Origin: Microbispora hainanensis
Lineage (GTDB): Bacteria; Actinomycetota; Actinomycetes; Streptosporangiales; Streptosporangiaceae
DNA: 64,000 bases
Direction of reading: 5' to 3'
Assembly: GCF_036186745.1 (NCBI RefSeq)
Contig: NZ_CP108086.1
Span: forward strand, 1,984,001-2,048,000
The translations under genes and the position numbers were made by a program. Shown in pieces: positions 17,511 to 33,816 of the stretch. Below the pieces are notes generated by a model. It searched no databases. It was not told where the DNA came from and saw only the letters and a list, made by a program, of their open reading frames with translations. Numbering within the stretch: position 1 is the stretch's first letter; each line of letters starts with the position of its first letter.

Positions 17511-18560
17511 CTAACCTGCCGGGCTCGCGCTTTCCCGGCCGATGGGCCAGGCGTCACCCCAGACGGCGTCGCGCGCCTCGCGGTAGGTCTCGCCCTGCCG
17601 CTTGGAGACCGGGCGGTCGGCCAGCCCGTCCTCGGCCGTGCACAGGCGCAGCGTGACCAGCCCCTTGCGCTTGACGGGGTGGCGGAGGATCCGGCTCTCC
17701 GCTCGCGGCGATGGCCGGGCCGACGCCGCGACATAGGAGAACTTCTCGTCTTCGAAGCTCAGCGTGCCGTCCTTGATCCGCCGGTGCAGGGCGGTGCGGT
17801 TGAGCCGGACCGCGAAGTGACACCAGTCCTGGCCGGGGCGGATCGGGCACTCGCCGTCGTGCGGGCAGGGGGCGACCACGTGCAGGCCCGATGCGGCCAG
17901 CAACCGCCGGGCCGCCGCGATCCGGGCATATCCGGCGGGCGTGCCGGGCTCGACGATCACGAGCATGCCCGCTCCCCGGGCCGCTCCCTTGGCCGCTCCC
18001 TGGGCCGCTCCCCGGGCCAAGGTACCGACCACGTCCTCCTGGACGGCGGGCGACAGCTCGCCGAGCACATAGGACATCGTGACCAGGTCGGCCGTCGGCG
18101 CGGGCGCGCTCCGGTCGACGAACGCCTGCTGCCAGCGCGCCTCGCGTACGGCCACGGCGGGCGCGTGCCCGGCCAGCCGGCGCCCGAAGGCGATGGCCGA
18201 GGGTGACTGCTCCAGCACGGTGGCCGTGCGCAGGGTCGGCCAGACCGCGCTCGCGGCCCACAACGCGCTGCCGGTCCCACCACCCACGTCCATCTGCGTC
18301 TCCGGCGCGAACCCGGGGGCCAGCAGGGCGACCTGACGCAGCGCGGCGCGCACGGCGCTGTAGGTCGCCGGCATGCGATAACCGGCGTACGCCGCGACCG
18401 CGGCCTCCGTGCCCAGCGCGGGCACGCTGCGGTCGAAGCCCTCCCGATACTGGCGGATCAGCGTCTGCACGCTCCGCGTCAGCTCGGTCGTGGGGAAGCG
18501 GCCCAGCGACGCTTCGAGCGCGTCGTCCAGGTCGTCGGGCAGGGTGGACACGGCGTTCAT
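17511..18560 (-). CDS. Rsm22-like ribosomal small-subunit methyltransferase family protein
   Basis: 349-residue class I SAM methyltransferase of the Rsm22/METTL17 family. The SAM-binding motif is MDVGGGTGSALWA (about 90-102), with motif SYVLGELSP further on. A cysteine cluster (APCPHDGECP ... WCHF) matches the four-Cys metal site of the family; mitochondrial relatives bind an Fe-S cluster there and assist small-subunit assembly. An insertion RGAAQGAAKGAARGAG near residue 184 is encoded by a 12-bp tandem repeat. ATG 18560 lies 29 bases after the PL8 lyase stop on the same strand. Confidence 0.85.
   Translation of the reverse strand: MNAVSTLPDDLDDALEASLGRFPTTELTRSVQTLIRQYREGFDRSVPALGTEAAVAAYAGYRMPATYSAVRAALRQVALLAPGFAPETQMDVGGGTGSALWAASAVWPTLRTATVLEQSPSAIAFGRRLAGHAPAVAVREARWQQAFVDRSAPAPTADLVTMSYVLGELSPAVQEDVVGTLARGAAQGAAKGAARGAGMLVIVEPGTPAGYARIAAARRLLAASGLHVVAPCPHDGECPIRPGQDWCHFAVRLNRTALHRRIKDGTLSFEDEKFSYVAASARPSPRAESRILRHPVKRKGLVTLRLCTAEDGLADRPVSKRQGETYREARDAVWGDAWPIGRESASPAG
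17969..18016. repeat. 12-bp in-frame tandem repeat inside the Rsm22-like gene
   Basis: Four units of CCGCTCCCnnGG at 17969, 17981, 17993 and 18005, coding on the minus strand for alternating GAA[QKR]G blocks. The length is a multiple of three, so the frame is kept. Confidence 0.9.
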
Positions 18561-18589
18561 GATGACACGGCGTTCCCGCAGCTCCCTGC

Positions 18590-20890
18590 TCAGGTCGTCG
18601 AAACGACGAGCCGGACGGCGATGGTGCGGGAGGCGCCCTCGTGGTCGGCCGGCGCCGTGAAGGTGAGCGTGAGCCGGGCGCCGGTCTCCGCGCGCTCCAG
18701 GAGCGGGTGCCCGCGTGTGACCGCCGCAACCGGCCGGTCCCACGTCACCGTCAGCTCGTCGAGGGCACGCCGGGGATCGGCAACCGTGACCGTGGCCGTG
18801 CCGTCGCCGAGGTCGCGTACGAGGACCGCGCACGGACCGGAGGCCGTCAGGAGGCCCGCGTGTCCGCCCGTCCAGAAGTTGACCGCGGTGACGCCCAGCG
18901 ACGGGACCTCGATCCCCTGCTGCGCCGAGGTGTTGGCGAGCACCCGGGCCCGGCCGGGATCGGCGGCGCGGGCGGCGGTCTCGGCCGGGCCCGCCCCCGG
19001 CATGAGGTGGTAGACGTAGTCGGCCGCGTCGGGGTCCACACCGTGGTCGAGCCACAGCGTGGTGTAGGTCCGGGTGACCCCCGCGGCCGTGCGGTCCTCG
19101 CGCAGCGTGCGCAGCGGCCGGCCGGCGGGCACGACGTAACCGCCGTGGCCGTCCAGGTGCGCCCATCCGGTCGCCACGGTGAGCCGGGCGCCGGTCCTGC
19201 GGTTGTCCACGACGGTCTCGACCGGCACGCCGTCGCGGCACGTGATGCCGGCGCCGAGGCAGACCACGGTGTCGTCGAGGAAGAACCAGGATTTGAACGC
19301 CTCCAGCGTGCTCTCCAGGCCGTAGAGGTGCTGGCCCACGGCGGCGTACGTGCCGTCGGTCGCGCCGCCGACCCATTCGGCCGGCGGGCGGGTGTCGCCC
19401 CACGCGCCGCCCGCGCCGTCGGGCAGCCGCCGGGTGGAGACCGTCGTGCCCGGCAGCCGGTAGGGGTCCACGGTGGGCCAGAAGGCGTCGGAGTAGTGGT
19501 CGCCGTGCCCGCGCGCCCACCAGTAGAGCATCCCCGAGCCGGTGTGCCAGCCGCGCAGGTTCTCACCGTTGCCGTGCTCGTAGCGCGCCACGCGGGAGGA
19601 GGCCATGCTGACCGCCGCGCACCAGCCGAGCCTGCGGTGAACGGCGCGGGCGCTCGCCGGGAACAGCCGGTGCCCGGCGGGCTCGGCGGCGGCCGGGACG
19701 GTCGCGTCGTCCAGCACCGCCGACAGCCGCCCGTGGAACGCGAGATCGCTCTGGGCCGCCGCCGTGAGCATGGGCTTGACGGTGTCGCGGACGGCCCAGC
19801 CCTTGACCATGGCGCGCCAGCGGGCCCGCTCGGCCTCCGGGGCGGTCTCGGCCAGCAGCAGGACCGCCGCGGCGATCTCCCTGCCCCTCCGGTGGTCGCC
19901 GTACGACCCTCTGGTGATGCCCCGGCCGCGTACGAGGTCCATGCAGGCGCCGTCGTGGACGAAGGGCGCGAACGCCAGGTCGACGGCGTCGAGCACGGTG
20001 CCCGCCGCCGGGTCGGTGATCTCCCACGGTGTGCCGCGCAGCACGGCGAACAGCGTCGCGAGGCCGGTCAGCAGCACCGCGCCATATCCGCCCTGATAGG
20101 GGACGGACCCGTGCTGGATGAACGAGCCGTCGCGGTGGAAGCCGTCGCCATCGGTGACGTAGGGGAACACCGGGGAGAGCGCGGAGACCGCGAGCGCGGC
20201 ACGATCGGGATCTGCCCCGGCGATCGCCCGCAGCAGCGTGACCGTGCACAGATCGACCCGGTTCGCCCCGGTGCTGTTGCCCTCGTAGTCGTCCAGGCGG
20301 CTCTCCGGCACGAAGGCGTCCACCGCCGCGCACAGCGCCGCGACCTGGGTGTCCGTCACATACGCGGCCGCCAGCACGGCGGCGTCGAGCAGCGCCCGGG
20401 GCGTCCCGATCTGCCAGTCCCACCAGTTGCCCGTCTGCTCGGCGTCCTCGGCGTACACGTGGCGCACGTAGTGCTCGATGCCCGCGGCTACCGCCGTGCC
20501 GAGCCCCGGCTCCGCGGTCAGCCCGGTGCCGGGCAGCGCGTACGCGCGGGCCATCGCCCGCAACCGGGCCGGGGTGGCGTCGAGCGAGGGGAAGGGCAGG
20601 TCGGGCCAGAGCGATCGGGCGGTCGGCGTCATCGTGTCGCGGTGCCGGCGGGCCTGCGCGCCCAGCCGCGCCAGCCGGCTCCGGTACGGCTCCCGCTCCG
20701 GGTCGAAGGTCCCGGGATATCCGAGCGTGACCTCGCGCCATCGGCGGCGCAGCAGGGTGAAGGTCGCGGGGTCGGCCTTCCGGCGGGGAGCGCAGGCGGC
20801 GGTCAGCGCGGCGAGCCCGCCGAGCTGCAGAAATAATCGCCGGGAAGGTCCGTTCACGCGTAGATTATCCGCGCGCTTCCCCTCTTTCAT
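18590..20890 (-). CDS. Secreted polysaccharide lyase family 8 (hyaluronate/chondroitin/xanthan lyase type)
   Basis: 766-residue lyase that cleaves uronic-acid-containing polysaccharide by beta-elimination at the cell surface. A Tat-type signal (SRRLFLQLGG) with a cysteine at 33 (TAAC) suggests a Tat lipoprotein. The helical catalytic domain contains NWWDWQIGTPRALLDAAVL. The triad can be read as N210, H260 and Y269, with spacings of 50 and 9 residues as in characterised PL8 enzymes (N349/H399/Y408 in the pneumococcal enzyme). A beta-sandwich C-terminal half follows. The polymer specificity is not visible. GGAAG precedes ATG 20890, and a CebR box lies 20 bases upstream of the start codon. Confidence 0.93.
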   Translation of the reverse strand: MKEGKRADNLRVNGPSRRLFLQLGGLAALTAACAPRRKADPATFTLLRRRWREVTLGYPGTFDPEREPYRSRLARLGAQARRHRDTMTPTARSLWPDLPFPSLDATPARLRAMARAYALPGTGLTAEPGLGTAVAAGIEHYVRHVYAEDAEQTGNWWDWQIGTPRALLDAAVLAAAYVTDTQVAALCAAVDAFVPESRLDDYEGNSTGANRVDLCTVTLLRAIAGADPDRAALAVSALSPVFPYVTDGDGFHRDGSFIQHGSVPYQGGYGAVLLTGLATLFAVLRGTPWEITDPAAGTVLDAVDLAFAPFVHDGACMDLVRGRGITRGSYGDHRRGREIAAAVLLLAETAPEAERARWRAMVKGWAVRDTVKPMLTAAAQSDLAFHGRLSAVLDDATVPAAAEPAGHRLFPASARAVHRRLGWCAAVSMASSRVARYEHGNGENLRGWHTGSGMLYWWARGHGDHYSDAFWPTVDPYRLPGTTVSTRRLPDGAGGAWGDTRPPAEWVGGATDGTYAAVGQHLYGLESTLEAFKSWFFLDDTVVCLGAGITCRDGVPVETVVDNRRTGARLTVATGWAHLDGHGGYVVPAGRPLRTLREDRTAAGVTRTYTTLWLDHGVDPDAADYVYHLMPGAGPAETAARAADPGRARVLANTSAQQGIEVPSLGVTAVNFWTGGHAGLLTASGPCAVLVRDLGDGTATVTVADPRRALDELTVTWDRPVAAVTRGHPLLERAETGARLTLTFTAPADHEGASRTIAVRLVVSTT

Positions 20891-20910
20891 CGATCTTCCG
20901 CACGGCTCTA

Positions 20911-20924
20911 TGGGAGCGCTCCCA
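20911..20924. promoter_or_regulatory. CebR/CelR-type LacI-family operator in divergent promoter
   Basis: Perfect palindrome TGGGAGCGCTCCCA. This equals the established cello-oligosaccharide-responsive box bound by CebR (Streptomyces) and CelR (Thermobifida). It lies between the PL8 gene (minus) and the Cip1-like gene (plus) and could control both. Confidence 0.85.
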
Positions 20925-20972
20925 GATGACGTACTTTACTTCTGCCGTTGTCACCGGGAAAAGGAGCGCGTC

Positions 20973-21755
20973 GTGCGACGACTGTTACCCGTGGTGTCCT
21001 CCTGTCTGGCCCTGCTGCTGTCGCCGGCCCCCGCGTCGGCCGCCTCCGCGTCCCCGTCACACGGGCCGGACACCTGCGCGAAGGGCGGCACGCTGTTCTG
21101 CGAGGACTTCCAGTCGCTGCCGGTCGGCGGCGCGGCGAGCCTCAAGTGGGGCGTCGACACCAAGCACGGCACGCTCACGGTGGAGCGCGGCCCCCGCGGC
21201 CAGAAGATGCTGCACGTCCACACCGAGGGCAACGGCCGGGCGTTCCTCAAGGTGGACGACTTCGCCCCGCCCGGCAACGGCTTCTACGGCCGCCTGCGGC
21301 TGCGCGTCAAGGCGTTCCCCACCGCCCCCGACTGGGCCCACTACACGCTGGTCGAGGCCACCGGCGCGGGGCCGGAGATCGTCCGGCCGCTCGGCGGTCA
21401 GTGGGTCCCCACGCTGGGCAAGGACCTGTGGGGCGTCGGCGCGGACGGCGGCCCGACGGGCGACTGGACCAACTGGCGCGAGTCGGCCCCGTCGCGGGCG
21501 GACGTGTGGCAGTGCGTCGAGTGGCGGATGGATCCCGCCGACAACGCGATCTCGCTCTGGTTCGACGGCGTGCCCAAGCCCGACCTCACCGTGTCGACCC
21601 GGAGCCACGGCGGCAACGACGTCGACTTCGTCTTCCCCCGCTTCGACACCGTGAAGATCGGCTGGCAGCTCTACCAGCCGAACCCCTCCCCCTCGGCGTA
21701 CGACCTCTGGGTGGACGACATCGCCCTGAGCAGCAGGCGCGTCGGCTGCGCCTGA
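20973..21755 (+). CDS. Secreted Cip1-like polysaccharide lyase-fold protein
   Basis: 260-residue secreted protein: signal peptide to about residue 25 (PASAAS), then a single beta-jelly-roll domain beginning DTCAKGGTLFCEDFQSLPVG. The pattern (GRAFLKVDDFAPPGNGFYG, YDLWVDDIALSSRRVGC) resembles the Cip1 core fold. That fold was first seen in a fungal cellulose-induced protein and is related to glucuronan lyases. Its enzymatic role is not settled. GTG 20973 has AGGAG at 20962-20966. The CebR box 48 bases upstream fits cellulose-linked induction. Family assignment is by pattern recognition and less sure than the lyase next door. Confidence 0.75.
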   Translation: MRRLLPVVSSCLALLLSPAPASAASASPSHGPDTCAKGGTLFCEDFQSLPVGGAASLKWGVDTKHGTLTVERGPRGQKMLHVHTEGNGRAFLKVDDFAPPGNGFYGRLRLRVKAFPTAPDWAHYTLVEATGAGPEIVRPLGGQWVPTLGKDLWGVGADGGPTGDWTNWRESAPSRADVWQCVEWRMDPADNAISLWFDGVPKPDLTVSTRSHGGNDVDFVFPRFDTVKIGWQLYQPNPSPSAYDLWVDDIALSSRRVGCA

Positions 21756-21759
21756 CGTC

Positions 21760-21831
21760 TCACGCGCCCGGTCACGCGGCCCGTCACGCGCCCGGTCACG
21801 CGCCCGGTCACGCGGCCCGTCACGCGGTCTG
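21760..21831. repeat. 12-bp tandem repeat, six copies, at convergent gene ends
   Basis: Units TCACGCGCCCGG or TCACGCGGCCCG starting at 21760, 21772, 21784, 21796, 21808 and 21820. The GT2 stop codon (minus strand, 21820-21822) is in the last unit, so the array extends downstream from that stop. Confidence 0.95.
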
Positions 21832-22821
21832 CCGGGCATCGCGCGGGCCGGTCAGCAGGCGCAGCGAGCCTGCGGCCAGGCCCGCGACGAGCACCACATG
21901 GACGACCAGATGGACGGCCATGAAATAGGCGGCGAAGATCGGCCCCCGCTGCCGCCGTACGAACCCGACCAGCTCCGGATCGGCGAGGACGAACCCGGCG
22001 ACGAACACGGCAGGGACGGCGAGCAGCAGGGGATGGAACAGCCCGAACGGCACGCTCAGCAGCACCAGCCCCAGCCCGGCCAGGGCGAGCCCGCACGACA
22101 GGATGCCCGCCGGGCTGTTGGCGTGCTCCGGCTTGGCGGCCCCGCGCCGGGTGGTGGTCAGCGCGAGCGGGATCAGCGGCAGCGCCCGCCGCCACTGCTC
22201 GCCGAGCACCGGCAGCAGGCGGCTGCCGTCGTCGTGGCGGCCCACGACCGTGTCGGTCAGCACGATCCGGCTGCGTACGGCGAGCCTGCTGCTGTATTCG
22301 ACGTCCTCGCAGTCGCGCAGCCGCTCGTCGAGCCTGCCCACGGCCAGCAGCACGTCGCGGCGGACGGCGGCGAGGGCGAACACCACGCTGTTGACCTCGC
22401 CCAGGTGGCGACGGCGCCAGTGCACCGCGTGGAGGATGCGATACCACTCGACCGGCCCGTCGTCGATGAGCGGCACGGTGTCGTAGACCCCGTGGACGCA
22501 GCCGACCTCGGGATCGTGCTCCAGGATCTCCATCGCGTTCGCGACGGCGTCGGGCCGCAGCGCCACGTCGGAGTCGAGGAAGAAGATCACATCGCCCGTG
22601 GTGGCGTCGATCCCGGCGTTCCTGGCGGCCGACACGCCCCGGTTCTCCGGCAGCCGCACGACCCGGCAGCCCAGCTCCTCGGCGATCCGCGCCGAGCCGT
22701 CGGTGCTCGCGTCGTCCACCACGACGATCTCGCCGGGCGGCCGGGTCTGCGCCAGCGCCGACTCCAGGCACAGCCGCAACGTCCTGGCCGCGTTGTAGCA
22801 CGGCACGACCAGCGAGATCAT
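21820..22821 (-). CDS. Family 2 glycosyltransferase with C-terminal membrane helices
   Basis: 333-residue GT-A transferase. N-terminal motifs are SLVVPCYNA, VVVDDASTDGS and FFLDSDVALRPDA (the DxD-type metal site), with RLRDCEDVEYSSRL as the acceptor-side motif. At least two to three hydrophobic segments follow (about 235-325), anchoring it in the membrane. It is the last gene of the glycan operon. ATG 22821 overlaps the GT4 stop by 4 bases. Sugar donor and acceptor are unknown. Confidence 0.9.
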   Translation of the reverse strand: MISLVVPCYNAARTLRLCLESALAQTRPPGEIVVVDDASTDGSARIAEELGCRVVRLPENRGVSAARNAGIDATTGDVIFFLDSDVALRPDAVANAMEILEHDPEVGCVHGVYDTVPLIDDGPVEWYRILHAVHWRRRHLGEVNSVVFALAAVRRDVLLAVGRLDERLRDCEDVEYSSRLAVRSRIVLTDTVVGRHDDGSRLLPVLGEQWRRALPLIPLALTTTRRGAAKPEHANSPAGILSCGLALAGLGLVLLSVPFGLFHPLLLAVPAVFVAGFVLADPELVGFVRRQRGPIFAAYFMAVHLVVHVVLVAGLAAGSLRLLTGPRDARQTA

Positions 22822-24086
22822 CGTCTCGTCCCCTCCGTCGAGAGCACCTTGGCGTACACGGCGAGCGTCTCCTCGGCGGCGCGGCCCCAGCTCAGCGTCT
22901 CGCGCACCAGCCGCTCGCCCCGCTCGGCCAGGGCGCGGCGCAGCCCGGGATCTGTCATGACCTCGATCACCCCGTCGGCGATGTCGCGGGGATCGGCCGC
23001 CCGCACGAACCGTACGGCGGGCCGCTCGGGGTCGCCGAGGAAGATCCGGGAGAAGCCGTCACCGAGGATCACCGGCCGGGCCAGGGCCATCGCCTCGGTC
23101 GCCACCAACCCGAACGGCTCGAAGAGCGAGGGGAAGACGCAGGCGTCGGCCATCGCGTAATAGTCCAGCAGCGCCCGCTTGTCCACGAAGCCGCCGGAGG
23201 TCAGCACCCGGCCGCCGAGCCCGCTCTCGTTGACGATCCGCGCGACGCCCGCCTCGTCGCCCTCCCCCACGAGCACCAGGCGCAGCCCCGGCACGGCGGG
23301 CGCGATGTCGCGCATGGCGTCGAGCAGCGGATAGATCCCCTTCTGCCGTTCGAGGCGGCCGACGAACAGCAGCACCGGATCGTCCTCGGCGATGCCGAGC
23401 CGGGCGCGCAGGTCCGCCGCGCCGGCGCGCAGCCTGTCGCGGTCGAACGCGGGGTCGGCGACCACCCGCTCGTACGTGCCGCCGAGGCGGACGACGTCGA
23501 TGGGCGAGCGGTCCCAGCCCGCCTCGAGCAGTTGCTCGCGCACCTCCGGGGTGGCGACCACGACCCGCCGGGAGATCCGCGCCAGCCACCGCTCCAGCGC
23601 GGCGAACAGGTTGAGCGGGTCGGTGATGCTGCGCTGCGGGGCGACGCCATATTCGGTGGTGTGCACGTGGAACACGACCGGCAGCCGCAGCACGTAGTGG
23701 CACAGCAGGCCGCACAGGAAGTTCGTCGAGTCGTGCACGGCGACGAGATCGGGCCGCCGGCCGGGACGCAGCCGCCGCAGGAGCAGGAAGTAGCGCCAGT
23801 TGCTCACCACGACGGTCAGCGCGAGCAGGAGGAACTCCACACCCCGCGTCCGGTTGAGCCGCCTGCGGCGGGCGATCGCCCTGGTCAGCAGCACGAGCAC
23901 CCGCCCGCGCGGCCGGTAGACGCCGATGCCGCCGGCCCGCTCCCACACGGGCAGGCGGCCGTCGTTCAGCGTGAAGACCGCCATCTCGTGGTCGCGGGCC
24001 AGGTGGGGGGCGATCAGCTCGGCGTAGCGGCCGAGCCCCGCCGTGATGTTGGGCGGGAACTGGTTGATGACGTGGGCGATCCTCAC
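22818..24086 (-). CDS. Family 4 glycosyltransferase
   Basis: 422-residue GT-B transferase. MRIAHVINQFPPNITAGLGR begins the acceptor domain, with the donor domain from LLFVGRLERQKGIYPLLDAM. The retaining-GT4 E-x7-E motif is in FEPFGLVATEAM. GTG 24086 overlaps the flippase stop (GTGA), and the stop overlaps the GT2 start (ATGA). It builds one linkage of the operon's glycan in the cytoplasm. Confidence 0.92.
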   Translation of the reverse strand: MRIAHVINQFPPNITAGLGRYAELIAPHLARDHEMAVFTLNDGRLPVWERAGGIGVYRPRGRVLVLLTRAIARRRRLNRTRGVEFLLLALTVVVSNWRYFLLLRRLRPGRRPDLVAVHDSTNFLCGLLCHYVLRLPVVFHVHTTEYGVAPQRSITDPLNLFAALERWLARISRRVVVATPEVREQLLEAGWDRSPIDVVRLGGTYERVVADPAFDRDRLRAGAADLRARLGIAEDDPVLLFVGRLERQKGIYPLLDAMRDIAPAVPGLRLVLVGEGDEAGVARIVNESGLGGRVLTSGGFVDKRALLDYYAMADACVFPSLFEPFGLVATEAMALARPVILGDGFSRIFLGDPERPAVRFVRAADPRDIADGVIEVMTDPGLRRALAERGERLVRETLSWGRAAEETLAVYAKVLSTEGTRR

Positions 24087-25351
24087 CCGCGCACCTCCGA
24101 TGCGCCGGCCGGCCGATAGAGCCGGGCGGAGACGGCCGTCACGACGGCCACGAGGACGAGATTGCTCAGGGCGAAGGCCACCAGCCCGCCGATCAGCCCC
24201 TGCCAGGCGATCAGCGCCGCCTGGCAGGCGAGCGCGAGCGGCGTCCCGGCCAGCAGGCAGCCGATGAGCACCTTGGCCCCCCGCACCCCGTCCATGGTCA
24301 GGGCGACCTGCTGGAGGTTGAACACCGTGTGCGCGCCGATCCCGAGCGCCGACAGCGCCATCAGGCCCAGCGCGTACGGATACTCGCCTCCCACGAGCAG
24401 GAAGAAGACCGTGCTCGCCGCGAACGAGAACACGGCGGTCGCCGCGAACACCACCGGGGCGAGCCGGGCGATCCGCCGCATCACGGCGGGTTTGTCCAAG
24501 GTCGCCAGCGTGGGCAGCAGCACCAGGCCGATCCCGTCGGTGAACACCACCCCGAGCAGCCGTTTGGGGAAACCGTTGTAGACGGAGTAGACGCCCACGT
24601 CGGCCCGGGGTGCCCAGTGGTTGAGGAAGATCACGTCCACCCCGAACACCACCGCCGTCAGCGCGGCGATGGCGGTGACGTACGCGCCGTGCCGGTAGAG
24701 CGAGCGGGCCAGCGCCCACGACCACGACCGGGGCACGACCTCGAACCCGGCGGCCGAGACCAGGGCGAAGACCAGGTTGGTGCCGATCAGCGCGACCAGG
24801 TAGGGCTCGGCGTCCCGCACGCCGAAGACCAGCAGGCAGCACGCGGCGGCGCCCAGATAGACGACGGCCACGGCGAGCTTGAGCCCGGCGACGAGGCGGA
24901 ACCTCTTCAGCCCGCGCAGGAAGCTCTCGGTGAGCTGGTTGAGCGTCATCGACAGCGCCAGCGCCAGCGCGAAGGCGAGCGTGCGGGTGTCCACGCCGAG
25001 CACGGCGGTCAGCAGCGGCGCGGCGGCGAGACCCGCGGCGAAGACCACCGCGCCCAGCACGAGCGTGGCCAGCAGCGCCGTCGTCACCAGGGCGGGCCGC
25101 GCCCCCGGCTCGGCCCGCGGCAACTCCTGGAACATGACGTAGTTGAGGCTGGTCAGCATGCCGACGGTGACGATCAGCGCGATCGACAGGACCACGGTGA
25201 ACTGGCCGAACGCCGCGGCGCCGATCCCCCGCGCGATGACGAGCGTGGTCGCGGCGGCCGTGCCGCTGGCCATGGTGCTGACCAGCGTGGGCCCGGCGGC
25301 CCAGCGGTGGGCGGCCAGGAGCCCGGCCGCCCGGTCCGTCAGCGCGCCCAC
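24083..25351 (-). CDS. Wzx-like oligosaccharide flippase
   Basis: 422-residue polytopic membrane protein of the MATE-like polysaccharide exporter family, about 12 hydrophobic helices. It should flip a lipid-linked oligosaccharide made by the operon's glycosyltransferases across the membrane. No Wzy polymerase or ligase is recognisable in the operon. The GTG at 25351 follows the nucleotidyltransferase stop by 4 bases, the only spacing in the operon that is not an overlap. Confidence 0.87.
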   Translation of the reverse strand: MGALTDRAAGLLAAHRWAAGPTLVSTMASGTAAATTLVIARGIGAAAFGQFTVVLSIALIVTVGMLTSLNYVMFQELPRAEPGARPALVTTALLATLVLGAVVFAAGLAAAPLLTAVLGVDTRTLAFALALALSMTLNQLTESFLRGLKRFRLVAGLKLAVAVVYLGAAACCLLVFGVRDAEPYLVALIGTNLVFALVSAAGFEVVPRSWSWALARSLYRHGAYVTAIAALTAVVFGVDVIFLNHWAPRADVGVYSVYNGFPKRLLGVVFTDGIGLVLLPTLATLDKPAVMRRIARLAPVVFAATAVFSFAASTVFFLLVGGEYPYALGLMALSALGIGAHTVFNLQQVALTMDGVRGAKVLIGCLLAGTPLALACQAALIAWQGLIGGLVAFALSNLVLVAVVTAVSARLYRPAGASEVRG

Positions 25352-25355
25352 CCCG

Positions 25356-26132
25356 TCACGCCCACCGCAGGTGTGCCCGCCGGGCGAATTCGAGGTCGTC
25401 GGCCGTGTTGACGCCGCGCGCCTCGTCGGGGTCGGTCACCGGCACCACCGTCAGCGGCCAGTGCCGCTCCCGGGACAGATAGGGCAGGAACGGCAGGAAG
25501 TTGACCTCCCCGGTGCGGGCGCCCACGTCCGCCCCGCCCAGATAGCGGGTCCACTCCTCCCGGAGCCCCCCAGTGGTCAGGCCCGTGCTCGTACGCGTGC
25601 TCAGGCAGAAGACGCCCACGTCGCTGAGCCCGCCGGGGCGGCACTCGTCGCCCTCCCGCGACTGGCGCACCCGCACCAGCGTCCCGGCGTCGTCGAGCTC
25701 ATACTCCACGTACGGCTCGGCCATCGGCACCAGCGGGAGCGTGATCCCCTTCTCGTGCGCCCGGACGACCCGGCCGGCCGTCTCGGGGGACAGGCCCGCC
25801 TGGTCGCCCCAGACCACCAGGATCGTGTCGTACGCCTCCCAGTGCGGCGCGGCGCCGAAGATCGCGCCGCCCATCCCGGTGGGCCGCTCCTGCACGCTCA
25901 CCGAGACCGCGCCGGTCGCGATCTCGTCCGCCGCCAGCGCCCGGAACGGCCCCTCACCCTGCGGGGACATCACGACGTGGACGTGCTCGACGTACGGCCG
26001 CAGCCGCTCGTGCAGCACGTGCCACACCGTGACGCCGTCGGCGATCTCCACCATGATCTTGGGGATGTCCAGGCCGAGGCGGCTCCCCCGCCCGGCCGCC
26101 GGGATCACCGCGCACAACCGTTCAGCAGGCAC
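25356..26132 (-). CDS. NTP transferase (sugar-phosphate or phospho-metabolite nucleotidyltransferase)
   Basis: 258-residue GT-A-like nucleotidyltransferase. The nucleotide-binding signature is VIPAAGRGSRLGLDIPKIMV (9-28), with metal ligand D in VVWGDQAGLSP and GGLSDVGVFCL downstream. It would couple an NTP to a phosphorylated small molecule. It sits in the same operon as a CofD/YvcK-like protein and a HAD phosphatase. GTG 26132 overlaps the HAD stop by 11 bases. The substrate is unknown. Confidence 0.87.
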   Translation of the reverse strand: MPAERLCAVIPAAGRGSRLGLDIPKIMVEIADGVTVWHVLHERLRPYVEHVHVVMSPQGEGPFRALAADEIATGAVSVSVQERPTGMGGAIFGAAPHWEAYDTILVVWGDQAGLSPETAGRVVRAHEKGITLPLVPMAEPYVEYELDDAGTLVRVRQSREGDECRPGGLSDVGVFCLSTRTSTGLTTGGLREEWTRYLGGADVGARTGEVNFLPFLPYLSRERHWPLTVVPVTDPDEARGVNTADDLEFARRAHLRWA

Positions 26133-26784
26133 CGCCCACCTCCGCGTACAGGAGAGACAGGATCTGTTCGAGGTCGCGTACGGCCACCGCCCCGGGAGCG
26201 GGCTCCGCCGTGTGGACGTGCAGGGTCGTCAGGCCCGCGCCGACCGCCGACGCCACCCCGTGCGCGGAGTCCTCCAGCACCACGGCCGCGCCGGGGTCGA
26301 GCCCCCAGTGCGCGCACGCGTACGCGTAGAAGGCCGGGTCGGGCTTGCTCGCCGGGACGTCGTCGCTGGTGAGCACGCCCCTGAAGTACGCGCCCAGCGA
26401 GCAGGCGGCGAGCACCCGCGCGACCGACGCCCGGCTGCCGCTGGTGACGAGGTAGGCGTCGCGGCCGGCGGCGACCAGGCGGCCGAGCAGTCGCCGCGCG
26501 CCGGGGAACACCGCCACCACGCCGGCCCGCTCGCGGTAGAGCCGCTGCTTCAGCCGGGCCAGCCGGTCCGCCTCCCCGGTCTCGCCCAGCAGGCGCACCG
26601 CCACCTCGCGGGTGCTCGCGCCCGCGTGGTCGGCGTAGCGGAAGGACGCGAGCCGATCGGGCGCGACCTCGGCGATGGCCTGCCGGAACGCCGCCTCGTG
26701 CGCCGGGCAGGAGTCCACCAGCGTGCCGTCGAGGTCGAAGAGCCAGACGCGGCGGGCGCACGCGTCCGCCAGGACCGCCGTCAT
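26122..26784 (-). CDS. HAD-superfamily phosphatase / phosphomutase
   Basis: 220-residue HAD subfamily IA enzyme. Motif I is WLFDLDGTLVDS (nucleophile Asp), motif II is TSGSRAS, motif III is the Lys in SKPDP, and motif IV is VVLEDSAHGV. The cap domain type fits phosphoglycolate phosphatase or beta-phosphoglucomutase relatives. The ATG at 26784 overlaps the CofD-like stop by 4 bases. It probably supplies or dephosphorylates the intermediate used by the adjacent NTP transferase. Confidence 0.9.
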   Translation of the reverse strand: MTAVLADACARRVWLFDLDGTLVDSCPAHEAAFRQAIAEVAPDRLASFRYADHAGASTREVAVRLLGETGEADRLARLKQRLYRERAGVVAVFPGARRLLGRLVAAGRDAYLVTSGSRASVARVLAACSLGAYFRGVLTSDDVPASKPDPAFYAYACAHWGLDPGAAVVLEDSAHGVASAVGAGLTTLHVHTAEPAPGAVAVRDLEQILSLLYAEVGGAC

Positions 26785-27980
26785 CGGGCCCGCGCCAAGG
26801 CCGCCTCGTCCCTGATGGCGAGCAGGGCCTCGGCCGTGCGTTCCGCGTGGTGCACGCCGCGGTGATCCAGGTCGGCGCCGATCCAGCGGGCCCCCGCCCA
26901 TTCCCCCCGGTCGAGCACGCCGTACGGCACCGCCGGGGCGTCCGGCGTGGACGCGTGATGGCTCAGCACGTGGGTCACCAGCCGCCGCTCGTTGCGGGGA
27001 TCACCGAGGTAGGCCAGCGTGCGGTCCACGAGGTCGGGCGCGCTCAGCCCCCGGACGTCGTGGTCGTTGCGGGTGTTGACGACGAACACCTTGGCCGCCG
27101 CCCGGCTCCGCGCGACGGCGTCGGCCACGCCCGGCGTGAGATAGCTGGGCAGGAGCGAGGAGTGCGGGGTGCCGGGGCCATAGACGATGAGGTCGGCGTC
27201 GCGGATCGCCGCGAGCGCCCGCGGGTTCGGCGTCACCTCGGCGCGCTCGCGGCGCAGGACCTCCCTGGTCCACGCGGGCGGCAGCGCCTCCAGCTCGGCC
27301 CGCCGCCGCGCGCCGAGCGGCTCGCGCAGCAGGAACAGGTCGGTGATCGCTCCGGGGCCCTGCGGCGCGACGATCTCGGCCTCGTCGGCCAGCAGGCCGC
27401 CGTCGCGCCGGAGCGCGGCCAGGAAGGCGTTCTCCCCGTTGGTCACGTTGAGCAGCCGTACGGGTGAGCCGAACGTTCGGGCGCAGGCCTCGACGGCGGC
27501 GTTGAAGTCCCGGCCGAGCCGCAGGTAGGCCCCCGCGAACACGAGGTTGCCGAGCGCGCAGTCGGAAAGGTCGAGCCCGTGCGGATAGGCGGCGAGCCGC
27601 CGGGCGAACACGCGCAGGTCGGCCGTGACGGCCTCGCGGGCCGCCTCCGGCAGCGCCGCGAACCGGCCGCGCCGCGCGGTGATCGACTCGATGACGGCGG
27701 CGAGCCCCGCGGGCGTCGTCCCGCCCGGCAGCCGGTGGTCGAGCACGGCCGCCAGCGCGGCCTGCGCCGGATCGGCGGGATCGAGGTGGAGCAGGAGGTT
27801 CTTGCGGAAGTCCGACGGCCCGAGCATCCCGGGCAGATAGCGCCGCAGCGCGCCGGTGGAAAGGCCGTTGTCGTAGCCGTTCACGATCAGCGACAGGACG
27901 ACGCCCGGAGCGCCCAGCATGCCCCTCGCGATGCCGGCCGCCCCTCGTCCGCCGCAGAACATCGTCACCGCGACGTTCAT
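26781..27980 (-). CDS. CofD/YvcK-like (2-phospho-L-lactate transferase family) protein
   Basis: 399-residue member of the CofD/YvcK superfamily. The N-terminal glycine-rich loop FCGGRGAAGIARGM and the family segment NGYDNGLSTGALRRYLPGML are visible, as are LGNLVFAGAYL and the YGPGTPHSSLLPSYL motif. CofD transfers a phospholactyl group from a nucleotide-activated donor. YvcK relatives are regulatory proteins that bind UDP-sugars. Here the gene is locked into a glycan operon next to a nucleotidyltransferase, so a role in making or transferring a phospho-linked decoration is suggested (inference). ATG 27980 overlaps the GT2 stop. Confidence 0.85.
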   Translation of the reverse strand: MNVAVTMFCGGRGAAGIARGMLGAPGVVLSLIVNGYDNGLSTGALRRYLPGMLGPSDFRKNLLLHLDPADPAQAALAAVLDHRLPGGTTPAGLAAVIESITARRGRFAALPEAAREAVTADLRVFARRLAAYPHGLDLSDCALGNLVFAGAYLRLGRDFNAAVEACARTFGSPVRLLNVTNGENAFLAALRRDGGLLADEAEIVAPQGPGAITDLFLLREPLGARRRAELEALPPAWTREVLRRERAEVTPNPRALAAIRDADLIVYGPGTPHSSLLPSYLTPGVADAVARSRAAAKVFVVNTRNDHDVRGLSAPDLVDRTLAYLGDPRNERRLVTHVLSHHASTPDAPAVPYGVLDRGEWAGARWIGADLDHRGVHHAERTAEALLAIRDEAALARAR

Positions 27981-28771
27981 CGGCTCTCCTCACGCGCCGC
28001 CGGCCTGCGCAGGACCCCCCGGCGCAGCAGCCAGTGGCGATAGCCGAGATAGGCGACGAACAGAGCCCGGTCGCGGGCGCCGCGCCAGTATCGCCAGCCG
28101 CGCGCGCCGCCGCCGCGCTCCCGGTGCTCTATCGGGACCTCCACCCACGCGTGGCCCATCTCGGCGACCCGCGCGGTGATCTCGGTCGAGCAGTTCATCC
28201 CGGCCGACTCCAGCGGCAGCGACCGGAAGAGCGGGCCGTGCACCACCTTGAAGATCGAGTTGAAGTCGCGGTAGCGCGTGTGGTGGAGCAGGTTGCTGAC
28301 CGCGCCGCTGGCCGCCGACCCCCATCGGTAGGCCAGGCCGTCGGCCTTCCTGATCCGTGCCCCGGAGAACGCCAGGGCCTCCCCTGCCTGGAGGCGCGGC
28401 AGGATGCGATCGAGGTTGGCGATCGGAAACTGGCCGTCGGAGTCGAGCAGCACCACCCAGTCGAGCCGGGTATGGGCGATCGCGGCGGCGATGGCCGCGC
28501 CCGCGCCGCGGTTGCGCTCGAACGTGACGACGACGAGCCGCGGGCACCGTTCCCGCAGGCCGGCCAGGATCTCGCCGGTCGCGTCGCGGCTCCCGTCGTC
28601 GCAGACCACGATCTCCCAGTCGCCCACGGCCGGGGCGTTCTCCAGGTAGTCCTGCCACTCGCCCACCACCGCCGCGATGGTCTCCGCCTCGTTGTACGCG
28701 GGCGCGGCCACGGAGATGTCGACGGGGATGCCGACGGGGATGCCGACTGTGCTGTTCACGGAGGTGCTCAC
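27977..28771 (-). CDS. Family 2 glycosyltransferase (dolichol-phosphate mannosyltransferase-like)
   Basis: 264-residue GT-A transferase: VAAPAYNEAETIAAVVGEW, VVCDDGSRD and VLLDSDGQFPI (DxD) are followed by FNSIFKVV and AEMGHAWVEVPIEHRER. This is the polyprenyl-phosphate sugar synthase pattern, although no C-terminal helices follow. It may load the lipid carrier that the flippase exports. GTG 28771 overlaps the membrane-protein stop by 4 bases. The N-terminus has a short VGIPVGIPVD repeat. Confidence 0.9.
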   Translation of the reverse strand: MSTSVNSTVGIPVGIPVDISVAAPAYNEAETIAAVVGEWQDYLENAPAVGDWEIVVCDDGSRDATGEILAGLRERCPRLVVVTFERNRGAGAAIAAAIAHTRLDWVVLLDSDGQFPIANLDRILPRLQAGEALAFSGARIRKADGLAYRWGSAASGAVSNLLHHTRYRDFNSIFKVVHGPLFRSLPLESAGMNCSTEITARVAEMGHAWVEVPIEHRERGGGARGWRYWRGARDRALFVAYLGYRHWLLRRGVLRRPAAREESR

Positions 28772-29472
28772 GGCTCCCCCGCGCCCAGCAGGCGGCCGAT
28801 CCAGCGGTCGAGGGGCAGCAGGTTGACCCCGATGATGACCGGGACGTGCACGAGCGCGAACACGATCGTCGCGCCGAACGAGATCGGCCCCCCGGTGAAG
28901 AGGTTGATGTGCGGCGCGTCGATGACCTCGGGGATGCCGACCGGGTTGACGACGAACCACATGATGTCGAGGAAGCCCGAGAACACGATGAGGACCCCGC
29001 TCAGCATGATCTTCAGGGTGCGGCCCGGGGTGCCCCCGCCGATGCGGTAGGCGGCGGCCACCGTGAGCACGATGCCGGGATAGAGCAGCAGATAGAGGTG
29101 CGTGTAGAAGCTGTCGCCCTGGGCCCGCGCGCCGTCGCCGTAGTAGAACCAGCTGATCCGCGGGATGAGATAGCCGGTGAAGAAGACGAACGGCACGTAG
29201 AGCAGCCAGTTCAGCCGGGGAGACACCCAGGGGAAGACCGCGATGGCCACGCACAGGCAGGCGAACGCGACCAGCTTGGCCACCAGTTCCCAGGGCGAGC
29301 CGATCTCCCTGGCGTGCGGCGTGGCCAGCCACACGAAGGCGAACCCGAGCGCCCCGACGGCCAGGGCCATCCACCACAGGTGGGGCGCCCAGGGGCGGGA
29401 GCCGGCGCGGACGACGTCCGCCGGGACATCTCCGTCGAGCCGGGACGGAGGACTTTTGCCGAATGCCGTCAT
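28768..29472 (-). CDS. Polytopic membrane protein, first gene of the glycan operon
   Basis: 234-residue protein that I do not recognise. From about residue 33 it has six hydrophobic segments, with conserved-looking motifs GYLIPRISWFYYGDGARAQG and NPVGIPEVIDAPHINLFTGG between them. ATG 29472 is preferred over a longer frame reaching 29571 because GAAGG lies just upstream and the extra residues are Cys/Arg-rich and unlike a membrane-protein start. Lead position in the operon and periplasm-facing loops suggest a structural or glycan-modifying role, but nothing more can be said. Confidence 0.75.
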   Translation of the reverse strand: MTAFGKSPPSRLDGDVPADVVRAGSRPWAPHLWWMALAVGALGFAFVWLATPHAREIGSPWELVAKLVAFACLCVAIAVFPWVSPRLNWLLYVPFVFFTGYLIPRISWFYYGDGARAQGDSFYTHLYLLLYPGIVLTVAAAYRIGGGTPGRTLKIMLSGVLIVFSGFLDIMWFVVNPVGIPEVIDAPHINLFTGGPISFGATIVFALVHVPVIIGVNLLPLDRWIGRLLGAGEP

Positions 29473-30124: not shown

Positions 30125-31789
30125 ATGAGCCAACCGCCCGGCGGCCCCCTGACCAGCCGCCGCGGATTCCTCGGACTGGTCGGCGCGGGCGCGCTCGCCG
30201 CCGCAGGTCTCACCGGCTGCGCGGCCAAGAAGGAAGTGTCCAAGGGCACCGCCGTCGCCGCCGACAAGCTGAAGGGCCTCGTGCCCACCCGCGTGCCGTT
30301 CCAGGTGCCCGGCCTGTCGCCCGACCTGCCGGGCTCCGAATTCGTCGAACCCGGCTTCCTGACCAGGCCGGGCACGATGGTCCAGGCCGTCGCCGCCAAG
30401 CCGATCACCAGCGGCGCGGAGGTGAAGGTCATGACCCCGCTGTGGGGCACCGTCCCTCCCGGCCTCGGCGAGAACTCCTACTACGACGCCGTCAACGAGC
30501 GGCTCGGCGGAGCCGTCCGGTTCAACATCTCCGACGGCAACACCTACGTCGACAAGCTGAACACGATCCTGGCCAGCGGCGACGTCCCCGACATGATCCA
30601 GATCCCGGGCTGGAACCTGATCAGCATCGCTCACTTCACCGAGGCGGCCAACAAGCTCTTCGCCGACCTGTCGCCCTACCTCGCGGGCGACAAGGCCAAG
30701 GAGTTCCCGCTGCTGGCCAGCTACGACACCGCCGCGTGGGAGTACGGCGTGTTCGGCGGCGTGCTCCAGGGCATCCCGTGGCAGAACGCGCCCTATCCGT
30801 TCGCCACCGTCGTGCGTCAGGACATCCTCGACGAGCTCGGCCTGCCCGCGCCCACGAGCGCCGACGACCTGCTCACGCTGGGCAAGGAGCTGACCGACCC
30901 GAAGAAGAAGCGCTGGGCGTTCGGCGGCATGGACCAGGAGGTCCAGCGGGCGTTCGGCGCCCCGCGCGAGTGGCGCAAGCAGCCCGACGGCACGCTGATC
31001 TACAAGTACGAGACGCCCGAGTGGCTGCAGTCGATCGAGCTGGTGACCAAGCTCTTCGAGGCCGGATATGTCCACCCGGACGTCGTGGCCAACCAGTTCG
31101 CCGACCACAAGGAGCCCTTCGGCGCCGGGCAGATCGTCATGTACAAGGACGGGATCGGCGCGATCCACGAGCTGTTCGGCCGGTTCCTGCCCGGCAACCC
31201 CAAGTTCAACGTGCGGGCGGTGGACCCCTACCCGGCCCACGCGGGCGGCAAGGTCATCGTCTGGCGCAACGAGCCCGCCGGCATGTTCTGCTTCATCAAG
31301 AAGGGCCTCGGCGACGCCCGTACGCGCGAGCTGATCGGCATCGCCAACTGGTGCTCCGCGCCGTACGGCACGCAGGAGTACGACCTGGTCAACAACGGCG
31401 TCGAGGGCAAGCACTTCACGATCAAGGACGGGCAGGTCCAGCAGACCGCGCTCGGCCGCAAGGAGTTCGCCCCGACGTACATGTTCCTGTCCGGGCGGCC
31501 CGGCGCGATCACCGAGAACCAGTACCCCGGCTACGTCGAGGCGTACCACGGCTGGCAGCAGACGGCTTCGCAATACCTGGAGAACGACCCGTTCGTCGGC
31601 ATCCGGGTCGAGGTGCCGTCGAAGATGGCCGCTCTCGTCAAGCCGACCGAGGACAAGATGAACGAGATCTTCCGCGGCAAGCGCCCGATCTCGGAGTGGG
31701 CCCAGATCGTCAAGGACTGGCAGGAGCAGGGCGGCAACGAGGCCCGCGAGTTCTACATGAAGGTCGCCAGGGAGAACGGCCGGCTGTGA
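30125..31789 (+). CDS. Tat lipoprotein substrate-binding protein of an oligosaccharide ABC importer
   Basis: 554-residue family 1 binding protein of the large (LplA-like) size class. Signal: SRRGFLGLVGAGALAAAGLTGC, a twin-arginine motif followed by a lipobox with the cysteine at about residue 32. The mature domain includes FNISDGNTYVDKLNTILASG and VPDMIQIPGW. It should deliver an oligosaccharide to the two LplB/LplC-type permeases that overlap it. With a GH42 beta-galactosidase behind, a beta-galactoside or galactan oligomer is the likely cargo (inference). No ATPase gene is in the operon. Confidence 0.92.
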   Translation: MSQPPGGPLTSRRGFLGLVGAGALAAAGLTGCAAKKEVSKGTAVAADKLKGLVPTRVPFQVPGLSPDLPGSEFVEPGFLTRPGTMVQAVAAKPITSGAEVKVMTPLWGTVPPGLGENSYYDAVNERLGGAVRFNISDGNTYVDKLNTILASGDVPDMIQIPGWNLISIAHFTEAANKLFADLSPYLAGDKAKEFPLLASYDTAAWEYGVFGGVLQGIPWQNAPYPFATVVRQDILDELGLPAPTSADDLLTLGKELTDPKKKRWAFGGMDQEVQRAFGAPREWRKQPDGTLIYKYETPEWLQSIELVTKLFEAGYVHPDVVANQFADHKEPFGAGQIVMYKDGIGAIHELFGRFLPGNPKFNVRAVDPYPAHAGGKVIVWRNEPAGMFCFIKKGLGDARTRELIGIANWCSAPYGTQEYDLVNNGVEGKHFTIKDGQVQQTALGRKEFAPTYMFLSGRPGAITENQYPGYVEAYHGWQQTASQYLENDPFVGIRVEVPSKMAALVKPTEDKMNEIFRGKRPISEWAQIVKDWQEQGGNEAREFYMKVARENGRL

Positions 31790-32829
31790 GCGCGAACGCG
31801 GACACGGGGAGCGTGGCGGAGGTCCGGCCCGGGGCGACCCAGGCCGGACCTGCCCCCGGCCCACAGAAGGACACGCAGAACGACACACAGAACGACACAC
31901 AGAACGACACGCGGCGCGACTCCTTCGCCGCGCGGCTGCGCCGCGACTGGCCGCTGCTGGTCATGGCCATGCCGATGCTGGTGCTCGTCACCGCCTTCTG
32001 GTGGGTGCCGGCGCTGGGCAACGTCATCGCCTTCCAGGACTACAACCCGTTCAGCGGCGGCATCCTGGGCAGCCCGATCATCGGCTTCACCAACTTCGCC
32101 CAGCTGTTCGGCGACCCGCAGTTCATCCGGGCGATCGTGAACACCCTGGGCATCACCGCGTTCCAGCTCGTCTTCTACTTCCCGGTGCCGATCGCGCTCG
32201 CGCTGCTGCTCAACAGCGTGGTCTCCGGGCGGCTGCGGGCGTTCATCCAGGGCGTCGTCTATCTGCCCCACTTCTTCTCGTGGGTGCTGGTGGTCGCGAT
32301 CTTCCAGCAGATGTTCGGCGGCGCCGGCCTCATCGCGCAGATCCTGCGCGACCACGGATACTCCGGGATCGACTGGATGACGAACTCCGACACGTTCATC
32401 CTGCTCGTGACCGCCGAGACGGTCTGGAAGGACGCCGGCTGGGGCGCGATCGTGTTCCTCGCCGCGCTCAGCACGATCGACCAGAACCTGTACGAGGCCG
32501 CCGCGGTCGACGGGGCCCGCCGCTGGCGCCGCATGTGGCACATCACGCTGCCGGGCCTGCGGCCGGTCATCGTGCTGCTGCTGATCCTGCGGCTCGGCGA
32601 CGCGCTCAACGTCGGCTTCGAGCAGTTCATGCTGCAGCGCGGCGCGGTCGGCAGCAAGGTGTCGGAGGTCTTCGACACCTTCGTCTACTGGTCCGGCCTG
32701 CGCACCGGCGACTTCGGCTACGGCGCGGCGGCCGGGCTGTTCAAGGGCCTGGTCGGGCTGGTGCTCATCCTGGTGGCCAACCGGGTGGCGCACGCCCTCG
32801 GCGAACGGGGGGTGTACTCCCGATCATGA
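31786..32829 (+). CDS. Oligosaccharide ABC transporter permease, LplB type
   Basis: 347-residue permease. GTG 31786 overlaps the binding-protein stop (GTGA). An unusual hydrophilic N-terminus of about 55 residues contains a DTQN repeat (31867-31910, 12-bp units) before the first helix (WPLLVMAMPMLVLVTAFWWV). The EAA loop reads EAAAVDGARRWRRMWHITLP near residue 235. The stop overlaps the next ATG by 4 bases. Confidence 0.93.
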   Translation: MSANADTGSVAEVRPGATQAGPAPGPQKDTQNDTQNDTQNDTRRDSFAARLRRDWPLLVMAMPMLVLVTAFWWVPALGNVIAFQDYNPFSGGILGSPIIGFTNFAQLFGDPQFIRAIVNTLGITAFQLVFYFPVPIALALLLNSVVSGRLRAFIQGVVYLPHFFSWVLVVAIFQQMFGGAGLIAQILRDHGYSGIDWMTNSDTFILLVTAETVWKDAGWGAIVFLAALSTIDQNLYEAAAVDGARRWRRMWHITLPGLRPVIVLLLILRLGDALNVGFEQFMLQRGAVGSKVSEVFDTFVYWSGLRTGDFGYGAAAGLFKGLVGLVLILVANRVAHALGERGVYSRS

Positions 32830-33737: not shown

Positions 33738-33765
33738 CGCCTCCCCGGCACTCCACCCCGCGACC

Positions 33766-33801
33766 CGACGCCCCGCCGCGCCTCCCACCGGCGGGGCGTC
33801 G
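33766..33801 (+). terminator. Intercistronic hairpin before the GH42 gene
   Basis: Perfect 13-bp stem CGACGCCCCGCCG / CGGCGGGGCGTCG with a 10-base loop. It lies 15 bases before the GH42 start, so it may partly terminate or stabilise the importer mRNA rather than end the operon. Confidence 0.7.
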
Positions 33802-33816
33802 CCCCGAAAGAAGGGC

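Follow-up and report, generated by a model that had tools for sequence, protein, structure and literature searches.

The CofD/YvcK superfamily has so far been known for two kinds of work, a step in the synthesis of F420 and the binding, control or synthesis of UDP-N-acetylglucosamine (UDP-GlcNAc; YvcK/GlmR). In FbiA, a single metal is held by D45 and D57, and in the proposed mechanism the acceptor hydroxyl attacks the beta-phosphate directly and GMP leaves (available text of PMC7253369). GlmR of Listeria monocytogenes is reported, in the available text of PMC10128056, to be a GlcNAc-1-P uridyltransferase that makes UDP-GlcNAc, with activity lowered about 100-fold in D40A/D41A/N198A. The accessible part of PMC11658790 describes Mycoplasma fermentans PG18, a producer of a beta-(1->6)-glucofuranose polymer (glucofuranan), in which the synthase gene is grouped with a CofD-family gene, present as two pseudogenes, and a nucleoside diphosphate (NDP) nucleotidyltransferase gene. 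We compared with these systems an operon in a 64,000-nucleotide stretch of the Microbispora hainanensis genome (contig NZ_CP108086.1, positions 1,984,001 to 2,048,000), which we call the window and whose host genome is a single contig of 8.8 Mb. Eight overlapping genes fill positions 21820-29472 on the minus strand, in the order membrane protein, GT2a, CofD-like protein (CofDL for short), HAD, nucleotidyltransferase (NTP), flippase, GT4 and GT2b, where GT2a and GT2b are the first and last GT2 genes. The coordinates and the Pfam/NCBIfam matches agree with the eight-gene block that an initial annotation of this DNA had delimited.

The operon is real, ordered and conserved. On sequence comparison, CofDL is a third branch within the known CofD/YvcK superfamily; the branch is new, as is its setting, and it is apparently undescribed. 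A description of its clade was not found in the literature searched, including the available text of PMC7253369, PMC8764529, PMC10128056, PMC7525490 and PMC11658790. The branch is co-inherited with glycan genes and sometimes fused to them, which brings glycan assembly within the reach of the superfamily and provides a defined, testable set of genes. We read the operon tentatively, with a probability of about 0.4, as a pathway that assembles a short glycan on a lipid carrier and in which CofDL probably transfers a phospho-sugar from an NDP-linked donor.

Placement and residues of CofDL

The comparison covered 45 near loci, from Streptosporangiaceae, and 41 distant loci, from which L134 and L150 (also Streptosporangiaceae) were excluded. 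The NCBIfam model that scored highest for CofDL was the GAK-system CofD-like family TIGR04357 (94 bits, below its cut-off of 340); YvcK TIGR01826 gave 77.6 bits against a cut-off of 196, and F420 CofD/FbiA TIGR01819 gave 20.1 bits against 257.45. Over 60 genomes of the phylum, the GAK model had 0 matches above its cut-off and 41 below. The genome holds three proteins of CofD fold, the other two being a YvcK of 287 bits in a RapZ-YvcK-WhiA locus, outside which CofDL sits, and an FbiA of 406.1 bits in an FbiA-FbiB locus (neighbouring open reading frames, ORFs, identified by inspection). In a 64-row tree, which carries warnings about long branches and uneven composition and in which the YvcK and FbiA labels were assigned by sequence inspection except for the two own-genome proteins, one branch (98/100) set apart 49 CofDL sequences and another (100/100) held 4 FbiA. 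The 11 YvcK rows did not form a single group in the best tree, though they may have a single origin. The candidate identities of CofDL as the genome's FbiA or its YvcK were ruled out by the separate own copies, the scores and the tree. The initial annotation's proposal, which a YvcK-type regulator would contradict, is not refuted on this point: CofDL differs from YvcK in score and grouping, and the genome has its own YvcK elsewhere. In 10 of the 15 distant genomes searched, several of them incomplete assemblies, the CofDL copy was the only match to PF01933.

Residues were compared in alignment A4, whose 49 rows are the window copy plus sequences from 15 of 45 near and 33 of 41 distant loci (it omits L120, L140, L141, L144, L146, L147, L155, L156, the orphan L059 described below and 29 other near loci), in A1, which has 32 rows with L059 included, and in A5, which has 29 distant proteins. 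D37 and D57, which align with the metal ligands of FbiA, were invariant in 49/49 CofDL sequences of A4 and also in A1; they were equated with FbiA D45 and D57 (M. smegmatis numbering) from the residue spacing of the genome's own FbiA. They are among 36 invariant positions, in sequences down to 27% identity. N34 of an NxxD motif is common to CofDL and FbiA and absent from the YvcK rows compared. A structural model of CofDL (pLDDT 95) matched UPF0052/YvcK chains with TMt 0.70-0.85 (top BH3568), M. mazei CofD with 0.64-0.70 and FbiA with 0.57-0.62, and a CofDL profile found only 5 sequences in the PDB, all of the UPF0052/YvcK group.

This closest fold, together with the uridyltransferase activity reported for GlmR and its orthologues and the roughly 100-fold loss in D40A/D41A/N198A (PMC10128056, available text), brings in the main rival to phospho-sugar transfer. 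CofDL may be a sugar-1-phosphate nucleotidyltransferase of the GlmR type, supplying a glycosyltransferase next to it or fused to it with a second, unusual NDP-sugar while NTP makes the other, and the CofD-GT2 and NTP-GT4 fusions described below resemble a donor-maker joined to a donor-user. We consider this possible but doubtful. The equivalents of GlmR D40, D41 and N198, mapped through the 2o2z alignment, are D37 (49/49), position 38 (D in 32, N in 17) and position 279 (S/T in 49/49), so CofDL lacks the GlmR residue set; moreover, a GlmU-like enzyme is already adjacent, and the GT2-fold domain of the long CofDL forms is without two motifs of GT2a. The YvcK-like fold could also suit a protein that senses NDP-sugars or serves as a scaffold, without catalysis, and so governs the operon enzymes; such a role has been proposed for GlmR towards GlmS and YvcJ. 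GlmR is a UDP-GlcNAc-binding protein with YvcJ or GlmS as interaction partner, and the HAD and GT2 fusions could be regulatory. However, the metal aspartates belong to the 36 invariant positions (though YvcK keeps them too), there is one CofDL per operon copy, and the fusion partners vary by lineage; we therefore rank sensing third and think it improbable.

Co-inheritance and fusion with glycan genes

Among 297 Streptosporangiaceae genomes, CofDL (orthologue threshold E below 1e-100) was carried by 41, NTP by 40 and GT2a by 39. The presence/absence profiles of CofDL and NTP were concordant in 296/297 genomes (Fisher p 6e-49, a value that ignores kinship). The NTP set is the CofDL set minus G139, and the GT2a set also lacks G112, in which both copies lie at contig ends. 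Two CofDL copies occur in five genomes and the same five carry two NTP copies; apart from the genome with the orphan, the copy numbers of the two genes are equal, with one CofDL per operon copy. Within the genus (15 genomes), operon genes were found in 10, CofDL alone in one (G139) and none in four. Counted from CofDL, the 45 near loci held GT2a in 44, HAD in 44, NTP in 43, the membrane protein in 42, the flippase in 41 and GT4 in 41. The gaps fall at contig ends (e.g. L026), L059 apart, which lost its partners. The block taken as a unit by the initial annotation is therefore conserved, recurring in the 41 family genomes and the 45 near loci with most partners retained. At the end of the operon, GT2b was present in 23 near loci and a second GT4, an alternative to it that sits between NTP and the flippase, in 17, with both in 0 and neither in 5. 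This exclusivity suggests two glycan variants.

The orphan CofDL of G139 (L059 8995-10209, minus strand) stands alone and adjoins a PL8 gene. It retains D37 and D57 and is altered at sites that are near-invariant in A1, including C141, N145, D263 and S274, a sign of decay after the loss of its partners. A CofDL profile matched only the own genome among 396 phylum-wide genomes (E up to 1e-40), and the window CofDL matched 11 of 394 genomes of the class, all Streptosporangiaceae (E up to 1e-20), so CofDL is rare among Actinomycetota beyond that family.

Across 84,980 species genomes, scanned using alignment A1 and two strict peptide patterns, 80 of 81 relatives were kept; because of the strict patterns, the distribution is a lower bound. 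Relatives beyond Streptosporangiaceae were 27% to 48% identical over the best segment and came from records titled, among others, Myxococcales, Deltaproteobacteria, Binataceae, Melainabacteria, Cyanobacteria, Verrucomicrobia, Methylacidiphilales, Armatimonadetes, Bacteroidetes, Cytophagaceae, Balneolaceae, Gammaproteobacteria, Legionellaceae, Alphaproteobacteria, Pelagibacteraceae and Propionibacterium oral taxon 192. Many are metagenome-assembled genomes with titles that may be wrong ("Bacteroidetes" L115 is 78% identical to Verrucomicrobia L122). Gene calls in the distant loci are longest-ORF guesses, which took the wrong strand in the GC-rich L114, and the CofD proteins were taken from profile matches instead. 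NTP was nearby in 36/41 distant loci and in 31/32 where the locus is not cut downstream, GT2a in 30/41, and a separate HAD in 24/41 (22/32 uncut downstream; fused in L125). On these partner counts the shared core is GT2a-CofDL-(HAD)-NTP, and CofDL, NTP and HAD, the three enzymes singled out initially, do occur together in homologous glycan operons both near and distant. An epimerase cluster was found in 24/41 distant loci, immediately after NTP in 18/41; these counts rest on the longest-ORF calls, and the epimerase is GalE-like by family models in L119, the one locus tested. Beyond Streptosporangiaceae, the flippase, GT4 and membrane protein were found in full only at L125 (by profiles), with other transferases near elsewhere.

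Fusions also join these genes. In Propionibacterium L125 the layout is [membrane protein-GT2a][CofD-HAD][NTP-GT4][flippase][GT4], with the membrane-protein part of the first fusion matching at 243 bits. The CofDL frame exceeds 600 residues in 35/41 distant loci, compared to 399 in the window. The extra part is a GT2 in L148 (Pelagibacteraceae; PF00535 2.6e-22) and, by a profile built in this analysis, in L151. In the AlphaFold model of L122 (pLDDT 85) the C-terminal domain has the ArnC/GtrB GT2 fold; the long-form domain keeps GDG and SDPxTGFR and is missing the PxxNE and DGSxD of GT2a.

Other genes accompany the distant cassettes. A protein with TPR repeats lies upstream in L131 (6988-9237), with its cluster in 9 other distant loci; the L131 protein, the only one domain-tested, has a GT41 (O-GlcNAc-transferase-like) domain. 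A radical SAM protein adjoins the CofD-GT2 gene in L148 (2845-4332) and has relatives in L149 and L151 (marine), the domain having been tested in L148 only. CofDL relatives were confirmed neither in viral contigs (two strict patterns), nor in phages (window protein, E 1e-8), nor in plasmids (Bradyrhizobium relative as the only query, E 1e-15), and an origin as phage or plasmid cargo is unsupported by these searches.

Proposed function

NTP aligns to GlmU across its length (E 8.7e-19 to 2v0h), although its best score with GlmU models, 49.6 bits, is below the cut-off of 366.85. NTP residues K25, Q81 and D110, which correspond to K25, Q76 and D105 of H. influenzae GlmU, were invariant in 30/30; the GlmU residues are described as required in the available text of PMC10128056. 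CofC models in Pfam or NCBIfam gave zero matches to NTP up to E=1. Since NTP is GlmU-like and not CofC-like, the compound that it activates is probably a sugar phosphate. The same evidence bears on the proposal that CofDL, in an FbiA-like manner, transfers a small phospho-acid (phosphoenolpyruvate, 2-phospholactate or 3-phosphoglycerate) to the glycan. Such acids are used by CofC/CofD pairs, and CofDL keeps the FbiA metal site and shares N34 of NxxD with FbiA. Nevertheless, both the GlmU-like partner and the epimerase directly after NTP in 18/41 distant loci point to a sugar nucleotide, and we regard a phospho-acid as very unlikely. The F420-like logic proposed by the initial annotation thus survives only partly: CofDL retains the two FbiA metal ligands, yet NTP does not resemble CofC and the closest fold is that of YvcK/GlmR. 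In HAD, D17, D19, K147 and D172, which we take to be the catalytic residues, were invariant in 31/31.

Under the preferred reading, phospho-sugar transfer by CofDL, the glycan would be short and lipid-linked, built inside the cell and then exported. HAD and the GlmU-like NTP would make an NDP-activated sugar phosphate, with a GalE-like epimerase joining the NDP-sugar supply in many distant versions. CofDL would be a divalent-metal enzyme that accepts the NDP-linked product of NTP as donor, which is the economical assumption, and would most likely pass the phospho-sugar on to a hydroxyl group of an acceptor, either free or bound to a carrier. Its chemistry may be an attack on the beta-phosphate with departure of a nucleoside monophosphate, as proposed for FbiA with EPPG. 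GT2a would charge the polyprenyl carrier, GT4 and GT2b would extend the chain, and the flippase would export the product. We infer that the glycan may carry a phospho-metabolite decoration, as suggested initially.

Co-inheritance, the fusions, the separate clade, D37/D57, the fold, the GlmU residues, the epimerase and the altered orphan all speak for this reading, and FbiA-like phospho-sugar transfer is our first choice ahead of GlmR-like nucleotidyl transfer. Several observations weigh against it. YvcK, the closest fold, also retains both aspartates, so the metal site is no proof of transfer chemistry; FbiA motifs beyond the metal and GG/GPG-type loops are absent from CofDL; and GlmR is reported (PMC10128056, available text) to synthesise UDP-GlcNAc, a reaction that differs from transfer. 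The long-form C-terminal domain matches GT2a weakly by hhalign (probability 17.8). The operon is patchy, with 41/297 family genomes, and in the distant loci neither GT2a nor a separate HAD is universal. In PG18, as described in the accessible part of PMC11658790, the polysaccharide is made despite the CofD pseudogenes, which would count against CofDL being needed if the family is the same.

If CofDL moves phospho-sugars, this would be an unrecognised route to phosphodiester-linked surface glycans, ranging over Streptosporangiaceae, oral Propionibacterium, Rhizobiales, Melainabacteria and Pelagibacteraceae. The broadest form of the proposal, in which CofDL is a new, widespread soluble glycosyl-1-phosphate transferase of CofD fold that passes sugar-1-phosphate from an NDP-sugar to a carrier-bound glycan, phosphodiester-linked exported glycans arise in this way in many phyla and the long-form GT2-fold domain, devoid of donor motifs, holds the lipid-linked acceptor, is speculative and on balance unlikely.

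Genes of the window and comparison with described systems

Six of the seven junctions between operon genes are overlaps (4 nt at five, 11 nt at one) and the remaining junction is a 4-nt gap. The genes and their surroundings are listed in the table below. The gene content supports membership of the eight-gene set in a lipid-linked glycan operon with a CofD-like protein, NTP and HAD, as first proposed.

Table. Genes of the operon and neighbouring features, in positions of the window.
Feature	Position	Strand	Remarks
Rsm22-family methyltransferase	17511-18590	-	PF09243 7.7e-86; probably unrelated to operon
PL8 polysaccharide lyase	18590-20890	-	hyaluronate/chondroitin-lyase-like; downstream of operon
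ORF between PL8 and operon	20478-21755	+	Cip1-like/polysaccharide-lyase-like match of 25.2 bits, under the cut-off of 27
GT2b glycosyltransferase	21820-22821	-	GT2 Pfam match 1.1e-34; C-terminal hydrophobic segments
GT4 glycosyltransferase	22818-24086	-	PF00534 2.6e-26
Flippase, probably Wzx-type polysaccharide	24083-25351	-	identity via alignment relatives
Nucleotidyltransferase NTP, GlmU-like	25356-26132	-	NTP_transf_3 1.1e-12; MobA/GlmU-like
HAD hydrolase, beta-PGM/phosphatase subfamily	26122-26784	-	HAD_2 1.1e-26
CofDL	26781-27980	-	PF01933 2.2e-28; putative metal ligands D37, D57; third branch of CofD/YvcK superfamily by sequence
GT2a	27977-28771	-	PF00535 4.8e-25; related to ArnC/GtrB/DPM-type polyprenyl-phosphate glycosyltransferases
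Membrane protein, family unassigned by Pfam	28768-29472	-	about 6 hydrophobic segments; conserved FYTHLYLLLYPG, DxMW, DAPHI
Divergent locus	30125-35724	+	sugar-type solute-binding protein and GH42 beta-galactosidase

The nearest PDB relatives of GT2a were ArnC (1.3e-13), then chondroitin synthase, GtrB and DPM synthase, and a script-based prediction gave it zero hydrophobic segments. The same kind of prediction gave the flippase 13 hydrophobic stretches, partly overlapping. PF01943 (Polysacc_synt) was matched by 6/14 members of the flippase alignment (best 2.8e-9), with nothing found in Pfam for the window copy up to E=1, and the flippase profile had 0 matches in the PDB. The membrane protein had a Pfam match in 0/4 alignment members. 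A sigma-70 promoter scan 5' of the operon gave 0 sites. No Wzy-like gene was recognised within the operon, polymerase genes elsewhere not having been sought. Madurose is the typical sugar of Streptosporangiaceae; a link between it and the operon was set aside, as the operon occurs in only 41/297 family genomes and no methyltransferase was seen in it. Around the operon, a PL8 match is near in 12/45 near loci, including L059, which lost the operon, and the ORFs between the solute-binding protein and GH42 are ABC permease-like by inspection.

Compared to FbiA/CofD, the F420 2-phospho-L-lactate transferase, CofDL is alike in fold, in both metal aspartates and in having a nucleotidyltransferase partner, but differs in its score, its separate clade, its GlmU-like NTP and the absence of other FbiA motifs. 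It shares with YvcK/GlmR the nearest fold (TMt up to 0.85) and the GGxG, DD/DN, GPG and GNL motifs, and differs in its score, its own clade, its locus and the changed N198 position. Although the GAK CofD-like model scores best, the operon is without the GNAT and ATP-grasp genes of the GAK system. ArnC, GtrB and AglJ are like GT2a in sequence and like the L122 C-terminal domain in modelled fold, whereas the long-form C-terminal domain differs, being without PxxNE/DGSxD and having a weak GT2a profile match. The PG18 region, with a polysaccharide synthase, a CofD-family gene and an NTP, is the only comparable set found in the literature searched, to the extent of the available text of PMC11658790. 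It was compared by description, not sequence, and differs in having a membrane synthase alone and a broken CofD-family gene; as an analogy, the parallel would favour a sugar-nucleotide role.

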